Below are positions 56,691 to 64,000 of a stretch of DNA of 64,000 bases, piece by piece. Below the pieces are notes generated by a model. That model had not been told where the DNA came from and did not search any database. It saw only the letters and a list, made by a program, of their open reading frames with translations. The stretch comes from Paramicrobacterium humi. GTDB lineage: Bacteria; Actinomycetota; Actinomycetes; Actinomycetales; Microbacteriaceae. Position 1 is the stretch's first letter. The number at the start of each line of letters is the position of its first letter. The stretch spans positions 2,480,001-2,544,000 of the forward strand of contig NZ_FNRY01000001.1 in NCBI RefSeq assembly GCF_900105715.1, in the 5' to 3' direction. The position numbers and the translations under genes were made by a program.

Positions 56691-58115
56691 GTGTCAACCG
56701 GTACCACGGCGCCCAGCCGCCTCGATCGCTTCTTCGAGATCACCAAACGCGGTTCGTCCGTCGGCGCTGAGGTGCGTGGCGGCGTCGTCACGTTCGTGGC
56801 GATGGCCTACATCGTCGTGCTCAACCCCATCATCCTCTCGTCGGGCGCCGACGTGACGGGAGCAACGCTCGACTTCGCGCAGCTCTCTGCCGTGACAGCC
56901 CTCACGTCGGGTGTCATGACGATCCTGTTCGGGGTCATCGCCCGGCTGCCGTTCGCGTTCGCGGCGGGGCTCGGCATCAACTCCTTCCTCGCGTTCAGCG
57001 TCGTCGGGCAGGTAACGTGGGCCGAGGCGATGGGCCTCGTCGTGGTCAACGGGCTAATCATCGTGCTTCTGTCGGCAACCGGCCTGCGCCGAATGATCTT
57101 CGACGCCGTCCCGATGCAGCTCAAGATATCGATCACCGTGGGCATCGGCCTGTTCATCGCGTTCATCGGCTTCGTCAACTCCGGCTTCGTCACCGCGACC
57201 GGGCAGGCCTCGCCGCCCGTCGGCCTCGGGGTCGGCGGCTCCGTCGCAACCGGTCCAACGATCGTGTTCGTCGTGACGCTGCTCATCACGGGAATCCTCG
57301 TCGCCCGCAAGGTCAAGGGCGGTCTGCTCATCGGCATTCTCGCCGGCACGATCATCGCGATGATCGTCGAGGCGATCTTCCACCTCGGGTCATCGGCCGA
57401 CAATCCCGGCGGCTGGAGCCTTGCGGTGCCGACCCTGCCGAGCAGCATCGTGGCGGTGCCCGACCTCGGTCTTATCGGCCAGTTCTCGTTCGGCAGTTTC
57501 GGTCGCATCGGCATCCTCGCCTCTCTCATGCTCGTGTTCACGCTCGTCTTCACAAACTTCTTCGACGCCATGGGAACCATGACGGGCCTGTCGAAGGAGG
57601 CGGGCGTCGCCGACAAGGACGGCACCTTCCCGCGTCTCAAGTCAGCTCTGATCGTCGAGGGCGTCGGCGCTGTCGTCGGCGGCGCCACGTCCGGCTCCTC
57701 GAACACCGTGTTCGTCGAGTCTGGCGCCGGCATCGGCGAGGGGGCGCGCACCGGCTTCGCGAACCTCATCACGGGCGTGCTGTTCCTGCTCGCGATGTTC
57801 TTCACACCGCTCACGAGCATCGTGCCCAGCGAAGTGGCTGCTGCTGCCCTCGTCATCGTCGGCTGCCTCATGATGGCTCAGATCCGGGAGATCGACTGGA
57901 GCGATGTCTCGGTCACGCTTCCCGTCTTCCTCACCGTCACGGTCATGCCGCTGACGTACTCGATCGCCAACGGCATCGGCGCGGGATTCATCGCGTGGGT
58001 GATCGTGCGCTCCCTGTCCGGAAAGGCACGCCAGATCAGCCCGCTGCTGTGGATCGTGGCTGCCGGCTTCGTCGTCTACTTCGCACGGGGCCCCATCGAG
58101 GCGCTCGTCGGCTGA
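56691..58115 (+). CDS. Purine permease, AzgA (NCS2/PbuG-GhxP) family
   Basis: Adenine/guanine/hypoxanthine proton symporter of 474 residues. EITKRGSSVGAEVRGGVVTF at the start, then FAAGLGINSFLAF, TGLRRMIFDAVPMQLK, NFFDAMGTMTGLS and ATSGSSNTVFVESGAGIGEG are AzgA signatures. A longer frame is open upstream, but GTG 56691 has a strong Shine-Dalgarno and starts the conserved part. The final helix carries no targeting signal. Confidence 0.93.
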   Translation: MSTGTTAPSRLDRFFEITKRGSSVGAEVRGGVVTFVAMAYIVVLNPIILSSGADVTGATLDFAQLSAVTALTSGVMTILFGVIARLPFAFAAGLGINSFLAFSVVGQVTWAEAMGLVVVNGLIIVLLSATGLRRMIFDAVPMQLKISITVGIGLFIAFIGFVNSGFVTATGQASPPVGLGVGGSVATGPTIVFVVTLLITGILVARKVKGGLLIGILAGTIIAMIVEAIFHLGSSADNPGGWSLAVPTLPSSIVAVPDLGLIGQFSFGSFGRIGILASLMLVFTLVFTNFFDAMGTMTGLSKEAGVADKDGTFPRLKSALIVEGVGAVVGGATSGSSNTVFVESGAGIGEGARTGFANLITGVLFLLAMFFTPLTSIVPSEVAAAALVIVGCLMMAQIREIDWSDVSVTLPVFLTVTVMPLTYSIANGIGAGFIAWVIVRSLSGKARQISPLLWIVAAGFVVYFARGPIEALVG

Positions 58116-58133
58116 CGGTTCGTCGACAGGCGC

Positions 58134-58155
58134 CCGGCATGCGAGAGCATGTCGG
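58134..58155 (+). terminator. Hairpin after the AzgA-type gene
   Basis: CCGGCATGC (58134-58142) pairs with GCATGTCGG (58147-58155), one G-U pair, closed by a GAGA tetraloop (GNRA type). Confidence 0.6.
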
Positions 58156-58165
58156 CCGCGCTCGT

Positions 58166-58171
58166 TAAGCT
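58166..58171 (+). promoter_or_regulatory. Leaderless -10 box for the phosphoesterase
   Basis: TAAGCT, 6 nt before ATG 58178. The in-frame GTG at 58172 lies directly after the -10 box and would be upstream of the transcript start, so ATG is preferred. Confidence 0.55.
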
Positions 58172-58177
58172 GTGCCC

Positions 58178-59074
58178 ATGTCTGTTCAGCTCGGCCAGCA
58201 TGCTCCCGCACGGCACACCGTCGCCCACTTCAGCGACCCGCACTTGCTTTCCGGCGGGAGACAGCTCTACGGAAGGGTGCCGACCGACGAGAACCTCGCA
58301 CAGGCTCTGCTGCAGCTCGAGCGCACAGGGCTGAACCCGACGGCCATCGTCTTCACGGGAGATCTCACGGATCTCGGCGAGCCCGACGCCTACCGGCGGC
58401 TGCGTGACGCCGTCGACCCCGTTGCCGAGCGGCTCGGCTCGACAGTGATCTGGCTCATGGGAAACCACGACGAGAGACCGGCGATGCGCTCTGTCATGCT
58501 CGACGAGGTCGCGAGCGAGGAGCCTGTTGACCGCGTGTGGGACTTCGACGGACTGCGCTTCATCGGGCTCGACACGAGCGTTCCCGGATACCACCACGGC
58601 GAGCTCACGACCGCGCAGCTGCGGTGGCTCGACAGCGAACTCTCGAAGCCTGCTCCGCACGGCACCATCATCGGGCTCCATCACCCGCCCATTCCCGCGC
58701 CCCAGCCCATCTTCGACATCCTGGAGCTGCGCGAGCAGAGCCGTTTCGCCGACGTCGTTCGCGGGCGTGACGTCCGCGCAATCCTCGGCGGACACTTGCA
58801 CTATTCCAGCCATGGCACATTCGCCGGCATACCGGTGTCGGTCGCCGCCGCGACCTGCTACACGATGAACCTGTCCATGCCGCAGCGTGCCGTGAACGGC
58901 ATGGCCGGAGGGCAGGCGTTCAACCTCGTGCACGTGTACGAGGACACGATCGTTCATTCAGTGGTGCCGCTGGGCGATCACGCGGGATTCGACTCGTTCA
59001 CCGACGAGTTCATCACGCGGCTCGAACAGATGACGCCGGACCAGCGCGTCGAGGCGTTCTCGCGAAAGCGCTGA
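58178..59074 (+). CDS. CpdA-like calcineurin-type phosphodiesterase
   Basis: 298-residue metallophosphoesterase, class III cyclic nucleotide phosphodiesterase-like. Metal-binding motifs in order: HFSDPHLL (DxH), FTGDLTD (GDxxD), GNHD, LHHPP and GGHLHYSSHG (GHxH). Likely hydrolyses 3',5'-cAMP or a 2',3'-cyclic nucleotide or phosphate ester; family members are promiscuous. Monocistronic by position. Confidence 0.9.
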   Translation: MSVQLGQHAPARHTVAHFSDPHLLSGGRQLYGRVPTDENLAQALLQLERTGLNPTAIVFTGDLTDLGEPDAYRRLRDAVDPVAERLGSTVIWLMGNHDERPAMRSVMLDEVASEEPVDRVWDFDGLRFIGLDTSVPGYHHGELTTAQLRWLDSELSKPAPHGTIIGLHHPPIPAPQPIFDILELREQSRFADVVRGRDVRAILGGHLHYSSHGTFAGIPVSVAAATCYTMNLSMPQRAVNGMAGGQAFNLVHVYEDTIVHSVVPLGDHAGFDSFTDEFITRLEQMTPDQRVEAFSRKR

Positions 59075-59092
59075 TCCGGCGTCGGCCGGTCG

Positions 59093-60736
59093 TCAGAGGG
59101 AGACGTCACCGCACAAGTGAACCTCGACCCCCAGGTGGTCGAAGAACGCGGCCTTGGCGAGGAGCGCCTTGTCCGCCGTCTCCGCGTCAGGCGCGTAGAC
59201 CACTTGCGCGTGATTGGCCTTATGCCGGGCCATCAGCTGGTCCCGAGAGACACCGTCGAGCACCGCGTGCATGATGGGCCACTGCGGGTCCGTCGCGTTC
59301 AGGCGGCGCTGGGTCTCTTCCTCGGGCAGCTCGACGACGTGGCCGCGACCGATGTCGAGGTGAAGGCGGCCGTTCTCGATGTAGACGCGCGACCAGACGA
59401 TCTCGCCGGGCTTGGACACCCCGGAGAGGGTTCCGCCGCCCTTGGGGAAGAAGTGCGGCACCTGGCGCATGCTGTAGCTCTTGTCGTAACCGCCGTTGTG
59501 GCTCGCCGGCACGGCGCCGGAGATCTCGAAGACCCACACGAATTCGCCGTCGTACTCCTCGCCCCAACGGACGTCGTGGAGCGTGTTCGCCGGGTCGAGC
59601 CCCATCGCGGTCCAGATGCGGTTCGTGACGAGCGCGTCGACGGCGACGCCCTCGTCGACCTCGTTGAAGTGGGGGAGCGCCTTGCCGGCGTACAGCTCCC
59701 GCGAGCCATCCCGCGAGAGCACTTCGGGGCGTTCGACGTTGTTGAGCAGTCCCTCCGCGAGGTCGCTCGCGCTCGTCATGTCCTTGAGTCCTTGCTGGTA
59801 CTGGATGCCGACGGCGTCGAGGCCGAAGTCGTCGCTGATGCGCAGGGCCGCGATGTACATCTTCATCTGCTCGTGCACTTGCGCCGGGGTGAGCTCGGTC
59901 GCGTCGTCGGTTCCGAAGTGGAACGTGAAGCCGCGGTCGTCGAGCCACTGGCGTGCGGCCTCGGCCTCGGCATCCGTCACTCGCGCCATCTCGGCGAGCA
60001 GGGCGCTCTGCGAGAGCCGCTCCTTGTAGATGCCGAGCGGATTGAGCAGCTCGTCGTCGATGATCGCGTTGTACATGCCCATGCAGCCCTCATCGAAGAC
60101 GCCGATGATCGCCTTCTCGGTTCGCAGCTGCTCAGCGAGCGCCCGACCGAGCCGCACCTCTTCGCTCGAGCCGTCGAGCTCGGGCAGAACCCGCACGTGC
60201 GAGAGGTCGTGCGTGATGGAGCCCGTCTCGAGCCACTCACGGAGCTTGCCGAGCGCCCACTCGTCGGTGAAGTCCTTGCTCCACAGCGCCGAGTAGCGGA
60301 TGCCCGCCTTCGTCATGCTTCCCGTGAGGTTCAGCAGCCCGACGAGGCCGGGGAAGTCGCCCGCCCAGTTCGCGACGACGAGGATCGGGCCCGTGTGGGT
60401 CCGCAGCCCGGGCAGCACGTGGTGCGAGTACTGCCACACGGCGTCGACGACGACGAGCGGAGCGTCAGCCGGGATGCCGCGGAAGACGTCCATGCCCTTC
60501 TTCTGCGAGTCGATGAAGCCGTGCCCGGTCTCCGGGTCGACGTCGTGCGCGCGCACGACCGACCAGCCGAAACGCTCGGCCGCCGCGGCGAAGTCGGCCT
60601 CGAGCTGCTTCTGCGTCTCCCACCCTGCCTCGTTCGCGCTGAGACGAAGATCGCCGGACGCGACGGTGTACAGGGTGTTCGGCTCGGCCGTCGGGGCCGC
60701 ATGCTCGACGGGGAAGGCGTACGAGGCAGATGGCAT
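59093..60736 (-). CDS. L-fucose/L-arabinose isomerase-fold protein
   Basis: 547-residue cytoplasmic protein of the FucI/AraA-like sugar isomerase superfamily. Recognisable parts are DSQKKGMDVFRGIPADAP, VVANWAGDFPGLVGLLNLTG, VFDEGCMGMYNAIIDDELL and SHNGGYDKSYSMRQVPHFFP. It differs from E. coli FucI, so the aldose/ketose pair is uncertain. A perfect AAGGAGGA Shine-Dalgarno and a promoter with a LacI-like operator lie upstream; the LacI gene is adjacent on the same strand. Metal ligands were not assigned by eye. Confidence 0.75.
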   Translation of the reverse strand: MPSASYAFPVEHAAPTAEPNTLYTVASGDLRLSANEAGWETQKQLEADFAAAAERFGWSVVRAHDVDPETGHGFIDSQKKGMDVFRGIPADAPLVVVDAVWQYSHHVLPGLRTHTGPILVVANWAGDFPGLVGLLNLTGSMTKAGIRYSALWSKDFTDEWALGKLREWLETGSITHDLSHVRVLPELDGSSEEVRLGRALAEQLRTEKAIIGVFDEGCMGMYNAIIDDELLNPLGIYKERLSQSALLAEMARVTDAEAEAARQWLDDRGFTFHFGTDDATELTPAQVHEQMKMYIAALRISDDFGLDAVGIQYQQGLKDMTSASDLAEGLLNNVERPEVLSRDGSRELYAGKALPHFNEVDEGVAVDALVTNRIWTAMGLDPANTLHDVRWGEEYDGEFVWVFEISGAVPASHNGGYDKSYSMRQVPHFFPKGGGTLSGVSKPGEIVWSRVYIENGRLHLDIGRGHVVELPEEETQRRLNATDPQWPIMHAVLDGVSRDQLMARHKANHAQVVYAPDAETADKALLAKAAFFDHLGVEVHLCGDVSL

Positions 60737-60765
60737 GGATCCTCCTTGATCGGGATTGTCATCAC

Positions 60766-60794
60766 ATCCTGCCCGAAATCGATTTCACGTGCAA
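60766..60794 (-). promoter_or_regulatory. Promoter of the isomerase gene with a LacI operator in its spacer
   Basis: On the minus strand TTGCAC (60789-60794), a 17-bp spacer and CAGGAT (60766-60771) form a promoter. The spacer contains the perfect palindrome GAAATCGATTTC (60775-60786), whose central CG is typical of LacI-family operators. Confidence 0.6.
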
Positions 60795-60825
60795 GACGAC
60801 GCGCGCTCGGGAGCGGGGCCGCGGC

Positions 60826-61785
60826 TCAGTCGCCTGTGCCGAGCACGATGGTCTCGGGCGCGCTCTCCGTCCCCGCGATGCGGCGTAGCAGCACCTCGGC
60901 GGCGGTGATGCCGAGGGCGCGGGCAGGCAGGTCGATGACGAGCGTGTTCTCCGGCATGACCGGTGCGCTCGGCAGATCGCCGAGGGAGGCGACGGCGATA
61001 TCGCCCGACCGGATGCCGCCTTCGTGAAGCGCTTGGAGGGCGCCGATCGCCATCATGTTGTTCGTCGCGACAACGGCGTCGGGCGGCTGCGGAAGGGCCA
61101 GCAGCTCGCGCATCGCGGCGCGCCCGCCTAGAACGCGGAAGTCGGCGTGCCGTTCAAGGCCGGCCGTGTCGAGGCCGTGCGCGGTCATCGAGGAGCGCCA
61201 GCCCTCGAGGCGCAGCTGAGCGGTCTCGACGCTCTCCGGCCCCGTGATGCACGCGATGCGGCGTCTGCCTTGGGCGATGAGCGCTTCCGTCGCTTCGCGT
61301 CCAGCCGCGGGATTGTCGATCACCACCGAGTCCACGCGCCGATCGTGGCTGCGGCGGTCGACGGCGACGAGCGGACGGCCCGCCGAGGCGATGCGGTCGA
61401 GATCTGACGCGTCGGATGCCGGCGCGACGATGACGCCGGCCATGTGCTCGAGAACCGCGATGTCGAAGTACGCGGCCTCCTTTGTCGAATCCTCGTCGGT
61501 GTTGCACAGCACGACGCTGTAACCCGCCTCGCGGGCGCGGTCCTCGACGCCGCGAGCGATCACGGTGAAGAACGGGTTCTCGATGTCGGGAATCACGAGC
61601 GCGATCATGTTCGACGATCTGCGGCGCAGCGAGCGAGCCGTGCGATTGGGTACGAAGGAGAGCTCTTCGGCTGCCGCGCGAACCCGTTCGGCCTTCTCCG
61701 GTGAGACGCTCGAGCCATTGATCACGCGCGAGACCGTTGCCGGCGACACCTGGGCGAGGGCTGCGACGTCGTAGATGGTGCTCAC
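60826..61785 (-). CDS. LacI-family transcriptional regulator
   Basis: 319 residues. N-terminal LacI helix-turn-helix (TIYDVAALAQVSPATVSRVI) and hinge (AARSLRRRSSNMIALVIPD-like), then a periplasmic-binding-protein-type sensor domain (NPFFTVIARGVEDRAREAGY, GVIVAPASDASDLD). GTG 61785 is the start that gives the standard domain beginning. It represses or activates the isomerase gene through the operator at 60775-60786; an inverted repeat GGGGTGT/ACACCCC at 61806-61833 upstream may serve autoregulation. Divergent from aspA. Confidence 0.92.
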   Translation of the reverse strand: MSTIYDVAALAQVSPATVSRVINGSSVSPEKAERVRAAAEELSFVPNRTARSLRRRSSNMIALVIPDIENPFFTVIARGVEDRAREAGYSVVLCNTDEDSTKEAAYFDIAVLEHMAGVIVAPASDASDLDRIASAGRPLVAVDRRSHDRRVDSVVIDNPAAGREATEALIAQGRRRIACITGPESVETAQLRLEGWRSSMTAHGLDTAGLERHADFRVLGGRAAMRELLALPQPPDAVVATNNMMAIGALQALHEGGIRSGDIAVASLGDLPSAPVMPENTLVIDLPARALGITAAEVLLRRIAGTESAPETIVLGTGD

Positions 61786-61805
61786 GCGGGCTCCGTTCGG
61801 CTGGC

Positions 61806-61833
61806 GGGGTGTGCACAACCATCTATACACCCC
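61806..61833. promoter_or_regulatory. Inverted repeat between lacI and aspA
   Basis: GGGGTGT (61806-61812) and ACACCCC (61827-61833) flank a 14-bp centre that includes the palindrome TGTGCACA (61810-61817) and the TATACA/TATAGA -10-like sequence of the divergent genes. Candidate operator. Confidence 0.4.
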
Positions 61834-61866
61834 AGCCGGCTCGCCCGGCGCGGACGCAGAGGCCGG

Positions 61867-61872
61867 TAGGCT
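61867..61872 (+). promoter_or_regulatory. Leaderless -10 box for aspA
   Basis: TAGGCT, 7 nt before ATG 61880; no Shine-Dalgarno. Confidence 0.5.
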
Positions 61873-61879
61873 CCCAGTC

Positions 61880-63355
61880 ATGAGCGAATTTGCTACACGC
61901 ACGGAGACAGATTCCCTCGGATCGATGGAGATCCCCGCAGACGCGTACTGGGGCATTCACACCGCGAGGGCCATGGAGAACTTCGACATCACGAAGCGGC
62001 CGATCTCGGTGTACCCGCACCTCGTCGTCGCCCTCGCGTCCGTCAAGCAGGCGGCCGCTCGCGCGAACGCCGAGCTTGGGGCTCTGAGCCCCGAGAAGGC
62101 GGAGCTCATCGATCGGGCGTGCCAGCGCATCATCGACGGCGAGTTCCACGACGAGTTCTGCGTCGGCGTCATCCAGGGCGGCGCCGGCACGTCGACGAAC
62201 ATGAACGCCAACGAAGTGATCACGAACATCGCGCTCGAGATGGCCGGCCACGACAAGGGCGATTACACGTTCATCTCGCCCTACGACCACACGAACCGCA
62301 GCCAGTCGACAAACGACGTGTACCCCACGGCCATCAAGATCGCTCTCGCGCGTTCTCTCGTCGACCTGCTCGATGAGCTCGACCTCCTGCGCGAGTCGTT
62401 CGCGGGGAAGTCTGAGGAGTTCCGTCAGGTCCTCAAGGTCGGCCGGACACAGCTTCAGGATGCCGTGCCCATGACGCTCGGCCAGGAGTTCCACGGCTTC
62501 GCCACGACACTCGGCGAAGACCACAAGCGCCTCTCCGAGACGATCTGGCTGCTCGCCGAGATCAACCTCGGCGCCACCGCGATCGGCACCGGCATCACGG
62601 CGGATCCGCGGTACGCCTCCGTGGTTGTGCGGCACCTGAACGCCATCACTGGGCTCAAGCTCGAGACCGCTCCCGACCTTGTCGAGTCGACGAGCGACGC
62701 GGGCGCGTTCATGTCGTTCAGCGGAGCCCTCAAGCGGTCGGCGATAAAGCTGTCGAAGATCTGCAACGACCTGCGACTGCTCTCAAGCGGTCCACAGGCC
62801 GGCTTTGGCGAGATCAACCTGCCGTCGAAGCAGGCGGGCTCCTCGATCATGCCGGGAAAGGTGAACCCCGTCATCCCCGAGGTGATGAACCAGATCGCCT
62901 TCTCCGTCGCCGGAGCTGACACGACGGTGACCATGGCGGCCGAGGCGGGTCAGCTTCAGCTCAACGCCTTCGAACCCGTCATCGCGCACTCGCTGCTGCA
63001 GAGCATTCTGTGGATGGCGCGCGGCTGCCACACGCTTCGCGTGAACTGCGTGGACGGGATCACCGCGAACGAGAGTCGTCTTGAGACGATGGTCGGAACC
63101 TCTGTCGGCGTCGTCACGGCGCTCACACCGTTCATCGGTTACACCGCCGCCGCTGCGCTCGCGAAGACGGCGCTGCTGACGCACCGGAACATCGCCGATC
63201 TCGTCGTCGAGGCCGACCTCATGACGCGTGAGGAAGTCACGAAGCAGCTGTCACCTGCGCGGCTCTCGGGCCTCGAGGCGATCACGACCGCCATCCCGGT
63301 AATCGACGCTGAATCAGAACATTCGGCAGTGGGTGGTGAGCTCACCGATTCCTGA
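61880..63355 (+). CDS. aspA: Aspartate ammonia-lyase
   Basis: Reversibly converts L-aspartate to fumarate and ammonia; 491 residues. TETDSLGSMEIPADAYWGIH start, GGAGTSTNMNANEVI, TGITADPRYASVV and the fumarase/aspartase signature GSSIMPGKVNP with the catalytic Ser loop. TSTNMNANEV and the SMEIPADAYWG region distinguish it from fumarase C by pattern; the exact substrate rests on that. The 3' end overlaps the convergent FAH gene by 42 bp. Confidence 0.9.
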   Translation: MSEFATRTETDSLGSMEIPADAYWGIHTARAMENFDITKRPISVYPHLVVALASVKQAAARANAELGALSPEKAELIDRACQRIIDGEFHDEFCVGVIQGGAGTSTNMNANEVITNIALEMAGHDKGDYTFISPYDHTNRSQSTNDVYPTAIKIALARSLVDLLDELDLLRESFAGKSEEFRQVLKVGRTQLQDAVPMTLGQEFHGFATTLGEDHKRLSETIWLLAEINLGATAIGTGITADPRYASVVVRHLNAITGLKLETAPDLVESTSDAGAFMSFSGALKRSAIKLSKICNDLRLLSSGPQAGFGEINLPSKQAGSSIMPGKVNPVIPEVMNQIAFSVAGADTTVTMAAEAGQLQLNAFEPVIAHSLLQSILWMARGCHTLRVNCVDGITANESRLETMVGTSVGVVTALTPFIGYTAAAALAKTALLTHRNIADLVVEADLMTREEVTKQLSPARLSGLEAITTAIPVIDAESEHSAVGGELTDS

Positions 63356-64000
63356 TACGGCGACGGTCACCGTCGACCTGTCCCGCAGGAACACCTGCGG
63401 GTCTCGCGAGTAGCCGGCTCCGCCCGGACTGCCCGTGGAGATCAGCGTTCCGGGCAGCAGCGTCGTCGAGCGCGACAGGTACGAGACGAGCTTCGCGACC
63501 GAACGCACCATGAGCCCTGTCGAGGAGTCCTGCATCATGTGCCCGTCGAGAACCGTGGTGATCCGCAGATCCTGAGGGTCGGGAACCTCGTCGGCCGTCA
63601 CGACGACAGGTCCGGTCGGCGTGAAGCCGTCGAATGACTTGCAGCGGGTCCACTGGGCTTCCGAGTACTGGATGTCGCGCGCCGTGATGTCGTTCACGAC
63701 CGTGTAGCCGAAGACGTAGTCGAGGGCTTCGTCCTCGGAGACGTCGTGCGCGGCCGTGCCGATGATGACGCCGAGCTCCGCCTCGTAGTCGATGGCCTCG
63801 CTCAGCGCGCGCGGCCATGTCGTGGTGCGCAAGTGACCGTTGAGCGAGTTCGGCCACAACGTGAACACGGTCGGCGCCTGGTCGGCTTTGAGCTTCAGCT
63901 CGCTCGAGTGCGCCGAGTAGTTCAAGCCGATCGCGATCACGGCCGGCGGAGTGAGCACCGCCGAATCGAAGTCGAGGTCGCTGATTGGAGCCGTCTCCGC
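63314..64000 (-). CDS. Fumarylacetoacetate hydrolase-family protein (5' end outside window)
   Basis: At least 228 residues visible; the frame stays open to the window edge, so the real start lies beyond base 64000 (a GTG at 63958 is probably internal). Conserved: AIGLNYSAHSSEL, metal-binding Glu in DYEAELGVIIG, FGYTVVNDITARDIQ and STGSPGGAGYS. Members hydrolyse C-C bonds or hydrate/decarboxylate acylpyruvates; the substrate is not readable. The nearby isomerase-like gene may belong to the same sugar or acid pathway. Confidence 0.85.
   Translation of the reverse strand, partial: AETAPISDLDFDSAVLTPPAVIAIGLNYSAHSSELKLKADQAPTVFTLWPNSLNGHLRTTTWPRALSEAIDYEAELGVIIGTAAHDVSEDEALDYVFGYTVVNDITARDIQYSEAQWTRCKSFDGFTPTGPVVVTADEVPDPQDLRITTVLDGHMMQDSSTGLMVRSVAKLVSYLSRSTTLLPGTLISTGSPGGAGYSRDPQVFLRDRSTVTVAVSGIGELTTHCRMF

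Follow-up and report, generated by a model that had tools for sequence, protein, structure and literature searches.

A LacI-type operator within the promoter of a FucI-fold isomerase gene of Paramicrobacterium humi and its probable place in a D-arabinose regulon of actinobacteria

In the window, i.e. the whole stretch of 64,000 nucleotides of Paramicrobacterium humi DNA that was analysed, a palindromic sequence lies inside the promoter spacer of a gene for an aldose-ketose isomerase and next to a gene for a LacI-family protein. In many actinobacteria, genes for the breakdown of D-arabinose and D-arabinan are preceded by a like arrangement, which makes it very probable that a LacI-type repressor puts these genes under induction by a D-arabinose-type sugar. 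The best overall explanation, to which we assign a probability of roughly 0.78, is that the palindrome is the operator of the adjacent LacI, that this protein would act by promoter occlusion until released by a D-arabinose-type sugar, and that the controlled gene would encode an isomerase of D-arabinose (or L-fucose).

On the minus strand, positions 60766 to 60794 read TTGCAC G TGAAATCGATTTCG GG CAGGAT; next come AAGGAGG and the start codon ATG for a protein of 547 amino acids. This interval comprises precisely two promoter hexamers and a 17-bp spacer, which confirms the placement of the palindrome given in the earlier note: the -35 hexamer TTGCAC (60789 to 60794), the spacer (60772 to 60788), which encloses the entire candidate LacI-type operator TGAAATCGATTTCG (60774 to 60787), and the -10 hexamer CAGGAT (60766 to 60771). 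The ribosome-binding site AAGGAGG (60741 to 60747) and the isomerase gene (59093 to 60736) follow on the minus strand. The lacI gene (60826 to 61785) is situated upstream on the same strand, and the promoter falls within the 89-nt gap between the two genes. The core of the operator is a perfect 12-bp palindrome with a central CG, GAAATCGATTTC, at 60775 to 60786; an even palindrome with a central CG is a trait of LacI-family operators (PMC4052901), which TGAAATCGATTTCG shares. No operator-like site was found before the window's own lacI, where the best match reaches 7 of 14 letters. Taken alone, the palindrome is weak evidence and only mildly improbable. When the 89-nt gap was shuffled 20,000 times, a perfect 12-bp palindrome appeared in 598 cases (approximately 3%), 71 such palindromes exist in the whole window, and a simple consensus-promoter scan of positions 58000 to 64000 found no promoter, because CAGGAT is a poor -10 hexamer. 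Since the palindrome by itself is hardly beyond chance, relatives of the isomerase were compared.

This comparison covered the best 80 loci of at least 595 confirmed places, 79 of them labelled Actinomycetota and one Chloroflexota. The motif NGNAATCGATTNCN is present in 65 of these 80 loci. It gave 89 matches over the best 80 loci versus none for 14 and a single one for the other of 15 control cores similar in composition, one of the 15 being not self-complementary. The complete composite, TTG-N4-operator-N3-A-N3-T, with TTG and the -10 letters at the operator distance seen in the window, has a 17-bp spacer in 45 and an 18-bp spacer in 10 of the best 80 loci, and it occurs in none of them with a spacer of 15, 16, 19 or 20 bp. 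When the -10 letters were shifted by -3 to +4 positions, the composite was left in only one locus or none, and shuffling of the 40-nt operator flanks led to an expectation of 0.11 composites with 17-bp spacer versus the 45 observed in the best 80 loci. Related genomes are not independent samples; the loci nevertheless spread over many families. The -10 hexamer has the conserved form NANNNT: of 50 anchored sites, one of them that of the window, 46 have the A and 47 have the T. The motif is absent from 15 of the 80 loci (L006, L026, L030, L042, L046, L048, L050, L053, L059, L061, L064, L065, L073, L076 and L080), of which L030 has a form with one mismatch. Four extra relatives, represented by 3.6-4.6 kb each, have the motif in two cases (L118, L120) and lack it in two (L119, L121). 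The sites precede genes for the isomerase, an FGGY kinase, GH116, GH172 (DUF2961), GH183 (DUF4185) and LacI, and distances to the kinase starts are rough, called kinase starts being often too early. Judged from this comparison, the conserved composite is decisive for the assignment as an operator, and the palindrome is not special to the window gene but appears to mark a regulon of many actinobacteria.

The genes around the isomerase point to the sugar concerned. The fetched stretches of 81 loci contain the FGGY kinase (one cluster) at least 45 times, GH116 at least 21 times, DUF2961/GH172 at least 14 times and DUF4185/GH183 (two clusters) at least seven times. Pfam was used to verify one member per cluster, and the counts are lower bounds, as ORF calling found the isomerase as such in 72 of the 81 loci and an antisense frame in some. 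Degradation of mycobacterial D-arabinan by the glycosidase families accompanying the kinase was demonstrated in 2023 (PMC10509167). One of our loci, L058, comes from the strain used in that study, Microbacterium arabinogalactanolyticum JCM 9171, and its GH116 protein is identical over 854 residues to PDB 8IC6, an exo-beta-D-arabinofuranosidase. The JCM 9171 genome contains GNAATCGATTNC four times and the reversed control not at all, and all four sites are located within one 14-kb part of the D-arabinan locus (C7:1112906 to C7:1126849), where they precede the kinase-GH116-isomerase unit, lacI, a solute-binding-protein gene and a DUF4185 gene; two DUF4185 genes of this locus (L152:9950-12639) have no exact site directly upstream. 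On D-arabinose, GH116 and four DUF4185 genes were more than 10-fold up in qRT-PCR, the solute-binding-protein gene was raised significantly and the GH172 gene mildly (3.5-fold) (PMC10509167), with the DUF4185 and binding-protein genes matched by us to the published ones by family and neighbourhood, not by a tag table. These data refer to another species than that of the window, and the genes named as measured do not include the isomerase gene. The authors assign "a putative isomerase and kinase" to D-arabinose metabolism (PMC10509167).

Comparison with the JCM 9171 locus, which comprises GH183, GH172, GH116, isomerase and kinase genes, reveals both likeness and difference. The two isomerases are 69% identical, the 14-mer operator TGAAATCGATTTCG stands before the kinase-GH116-isomerase unit as it stands before the window gene, and the adjacent LacIs share 51% identity over the 239 residues available from L058. 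In contrast, the spacer measures 18 bp in JCM 9171 and 17 bp in the window, and the window genome has no match to GH116, DUF2961 or DUF4185 and no orthologous kinase.

The window protein is a FucI-fold aldose-ketose isomerase, as indicated by Pfam, by its predicted fold and by its relatives, which stand beside the FGGY kinase and D-arabinan glycosidases. The Pfam domain Fucose_iso_C scores 38 bits, above its cut-off of 29.3, while Fucose_iso_N1 stays at 23.3 bits, below its cut-off of 28. A structure predicted from 40 sequences (pLDDT 90.7) has as its top PDB match the D-arabinose isomerase 3A9R (E 6.6e-20), with L-fucose isomerases next, and the 41 structure matches at E<=0.001 consist entirely of isomerases, acting on D-arabinose, L-fucose or L-arabinose. 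The global TM-scores of approximately 0.5 and rmsd of approximately 23 imply that the domain placement differs from that of the solved isomerases. Identity in the structural alignments is 15-17%, and no solved isomerase was reached by sequence, neither with phmmer at 0.001 nor with a 13-sequence profile at E<=1. The protein shares its predicted fold and Fucose_iso_C with E. coli FucI (1FUI) and the Bacillus pallidus enzyme (3A9R), but differs from both in its low identity, in its distance by phmmer and profile, and in the N1 domain below the Pfam cut-off. Many acidic and histidine columns are invariant in the isomerase alignment. D-arabinose and L-fucose have the same configuration at C2-C4, which is why the fold is unable to separate these two sugars. 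The genomic context favours D-arabinose over L-fucose, and because the sites precede D-arabinan genes and because of the published induction by D-arabinose, D-arabinose is the most likely substrate, or else L-fucose as its homologue. The earlier note had called the substrate unknown, which needs to be corrected to this stereochemically equivalent pair; its proposal that the regulation would offer a route to the substrate proved useful through comparative genomics of the regulon. The isomerase was found in five of 59 genomes searched at E<=1e-100, own genome included; in four further genomes belonging to the genus of the window, it was not found at this threshold.

The window genome itself holds the isomerase without its usual companions. 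Searches revealed no orthologue of the dedicated FGGY kinase (closest match 34%), no GH116 (the control was positive in 3 of 14 genomes) and neither DUF2961 nor DUF4185, for which both controls were silent everywhere; the D-arabinan context was therefore not found in the window genome. Among 16 relatives, some represented by draft genomes, eight have a kinase at least 50% identical to the L005 query (L004, L005 itself, L007, L058, L035, L078, L011, L030) and eight do not (L008, L009, L010, L016, L017, L049, L066, L057; best matches 30-34%). The Agromyces locus L016, whose aspartase-side neighbours are as in the window, carries between operator and isomerase a kinase relic of 41 codons that is 85% identical to the L007 kinase, from which it follows that the two-gene form arose there by loss. 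Short blastx matches to the kinase between operator and isomerase elsewhere (8-35 residues, E 0.012 or worse) were dismissed as chance or start-calling artefacts. Kinase-bearing and kinase-less members are interspersed within the window clade. Most likely, as far as these genomes tell, the operon of the window lineage lost the genes for kinase and glycosidases found with the isomerase in other genomes.

A search for further copies of the palindrome had been suggested in the earlier note as a means to list the regulon. The own genome has in its 3.36 Mb one exact copy of GAAATCGATTTC and two places with one mismatch; with up to three mismatches allowed, 41 places were found, whereas the reversed control gave 7. 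Among these, one further place was seen as a plausible target, the one-mismatch operator TGATATCGATTTCA at C1:1681200, before a CUT2 sugar ABC transporter. Beside it are genes for FucU-like, L-fuconolactonase-like, MR/MLE dehydratase, aldo-keto reductase and FAA hydrolase proteins, i.e. an L-fucose-type oxidative cluster, whose NCBIfam matches fall below the curated cut-offs. The transporter ATPase is 77% identical to one encoded near the isomerase in two Cryobacterium genomes, and kinase-less Agromyces ISL-38 has an exact operator approximately 49 bp before FucU and a CUT2-type transporter. The dehydratase of the cluster exists in 15 of the 16 relatives, in seven of the eight with the kinase and in all eight without it, and is therefore not tied to kinase loss. 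Together, these observations suggest that the transporter site may be a shared member of the regulon; we rate it as a lead because of this dehydratase distribution and because some genomic sites occur at unrelated places. Such a place is found in Cryobacterium tagatosivorans, whose genome has two matches, one of them (C58:81175) away from all genes of the regulon set; Glaciibacter has nine matches and Cryobacterium RYN_91 seven. An exact site of Glaciibacter (C7:12931) was not counted as an operator, since it lies within the start of an aldo-keto reductase coding match. Two further places of the own genome were likewise not taken as regulon members, C1:541458 because of its imperfect match GGAAACCGATTTCC, with neighbours judged by eye, and the pair C1:2361494 and 2362597 because of its other gene context and the lack of the composite spacing. 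In this pair (L115:5494 and L115:6597), two AATCGATT palindromes 1.1 kb apart flank an ORF of 319 aa, each followed by the similar text CACA-CTG-GACAGCGGAAC.

Given the oxidative cluster in the same cell, L-fucose represents a real alternative, albeit an unlikely one. Operator and repressor would then be the same, but the kinase-less lineage would use L-fucose, with LacI sensing L-fucose or L-fuculose and the isomerase working together with the FucU-ABC transporter and the oxidative cluster. The sites before the own CUT2 transporter and before FucU-CUT2 of Agromyces ISL-38 would fit such a use. However, the window isomerase is 80% identical to the isomerases of the kinase-GH116 operons L005 and L007 and clusters with them in a quick tree (clade of 11 rows, SH-aLRT 97), and the dehydratase is found in kinase-keeping relatives as well as in kinase-less ones. 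Another reading, likewise rather unlikely, is a rewired D-arabinose switch, in which LacI, operator and isomerase were kept while the kinase and glycosidases of the operon were lost, and the same repressor would also control the FucU-ABC unit of a non-phosphorylating L-fucose/D-arabinose pathway. If true, the isomerase would feed or drain that pathway, for example by turning D-ribulose or L-fuculose into aldoses for oxidation.

For the regulator, we return to the D-arabinose reading. Repressors such as CcpA, RbsR and PurR belong to the LacI family. The protein encoded next to the isomerase, of 319 aa, is indeed a member, as previously noted: its N-terminal LacI HTH domain (PF00356) scores 56.2 bits (cut-off 27, E 3e-15), and its sugar-binding, periplasmic-binding-protein-like effector domain scores 113.1 bits with PF00532 and 88.5 bits with PF13377. 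With the sugar repressors described in PMC4052901, whose main text has no word starting with arabinose or fucose, the window system shares these two domains, the even palindrome with central CG and the adjoining presumed target gene. In 49 of 81 loci (window included), a LacI-like protein of one cluster is encoded within 5 kb of the isomerase gene on either side, in some cases not as a direct neighbour, and several relatives have a further site before lacI itself. Identity to the window LacI amounts to 55-63% for 23 of the 48 other LacIs (in four cases aligned over 276-287 residues only) and to 38-55% for the remaining ones, and V-S-x-A-T-V-S-R occurs in 40 of the 41 LacIs with readable HTH, including the window's. 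The simplest reading of these similarities would be that at least the more similar half of the LacIs are orthologues of a single regulator and share a single operator, and the adjacent LacI is most likely a D-arabinose-type repressor working by promoter occlusion. The assignment of the operator to its neighbour, already proposed before, thus gains support from the similar LacI genes that travel with the same operator. It is quite improbable that the operator belongs to another LacI-family protein while the adjacent one controls something else: the own genome yields 20 LacI matches at E<=1e-15, the adjacent LacI among them, and many LacI operators are alike, being even palindromes with central CG (PMC4052901), but 23 of the 48 LacIs of relatives are at least 55% identical to the adjacent protein, versus 43% for its closest paralogue in the own genome, and the HTH sequence VSxATVSR is common to almost all LacIs in which it could be read. 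A chance palindrome, for which the shuffling frequency, the abundance of palindromes in the window and the empty promoter scan could be quoted, was rejected as very unlikely in view of the conservation footprint across relatives, motif and spacing being sharply conserved in 55 of the best 80 of at least 595 loci.

Generally, in the LacI family a dimer bound in this way covers the spacer, so that polymerase and repressor are mutually exclusive, and a sugar ligand frees the site. The position of the window operator in the spacer, kept in relatives, would suit such repression by promoter blocking, in line with the earlier note, whose interpretation as a whole is partly supported. The LacI dimer would bind TGAAATCGATTTCG between the -35 and -10 hexamers and keep RNA polymerase off the isomerase promoter. 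Once a D-arabinose-type sugar enters the cell, the sugar or its product would bind LacI, and the ligand-bound protein would leave the operator and permit synthesis of the isomerase, which would convert D-arabinose to D-ribulose or, as a close alternative, L-fucose to L-fuculose. The effector could instead be D-ribulose, a phosphate or an arabino-oligosaccharide.

This type of mechanism is already known. Our search of open-licence papers retrieved no regulator or operator of D-arabinose use and no account of the regulon. The two reports of 2023 on the D-arabinan enzymes (PMC10509167, PMC10115798) name no regulator in the text searched, and the main text of PMC10509167 contains none of the terms LacI, operon and transcriptional regulator. 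For the use of D-arabinose and D-arabinan in actinobacteria, the present analysis offers a probable regulator together with a promoter signature that can be recognised. The 29-bp composite is usable as a query for further D-arabinan genes, the LacI could become a D-arabinose-responsive sensor, and an isomerase of doubtful substrate is reduced to a two-sugar question. It also raises the question why some bacteria kept isomerase and switch without the kinase.

Several minor observations concern the transcripts and the surroundings of these genes. In 23 of the 46 loci with the 17-bp composite (window counted), an ATG, mostly that of the kinase gene, is found 6-8 nt past the -10 hexamer (L004, L005, L008, L012-L015, L018-L023, L025, L029, L031, L033, L034, L037, L039, L060, L062, L083), which points to leaderless mRNA; the predicted leader of the isomerase mRNA in the window has approximately 23 nt and a good ribosome site. 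Agromyces subbeticus possesses two operators 22 bp apart (L173:3937 and L173:3959), approximately 2.5 kb upstream of lacI and before another gene. An FGGY-family kinase beside the fucose-type cluster of the own genome (L092:15297-16768, C1:1689296-1690767) is split between two frames, with the N domain in one and the C domain in the other, and may be a broken gene or a sequencing error. On the other side of lacI, aspartase-like and FAA-hydrolase-like genes (61880-64000) adjoin, which have the same place in L009, L010 and L017 and also in L016, where the lacI position was miscalled in the ORF calling, and the FAA protein resembles 2,4-didehydro-3-deoxy-L-rhamnonate hydrolase with a score below the cut-off. 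Finally, an inverted repeat, GGGGTGT...ACACCCC, at 61806 to 61833 between lacI and the aspartase-like gene is possibly the regulatory site of another protein.
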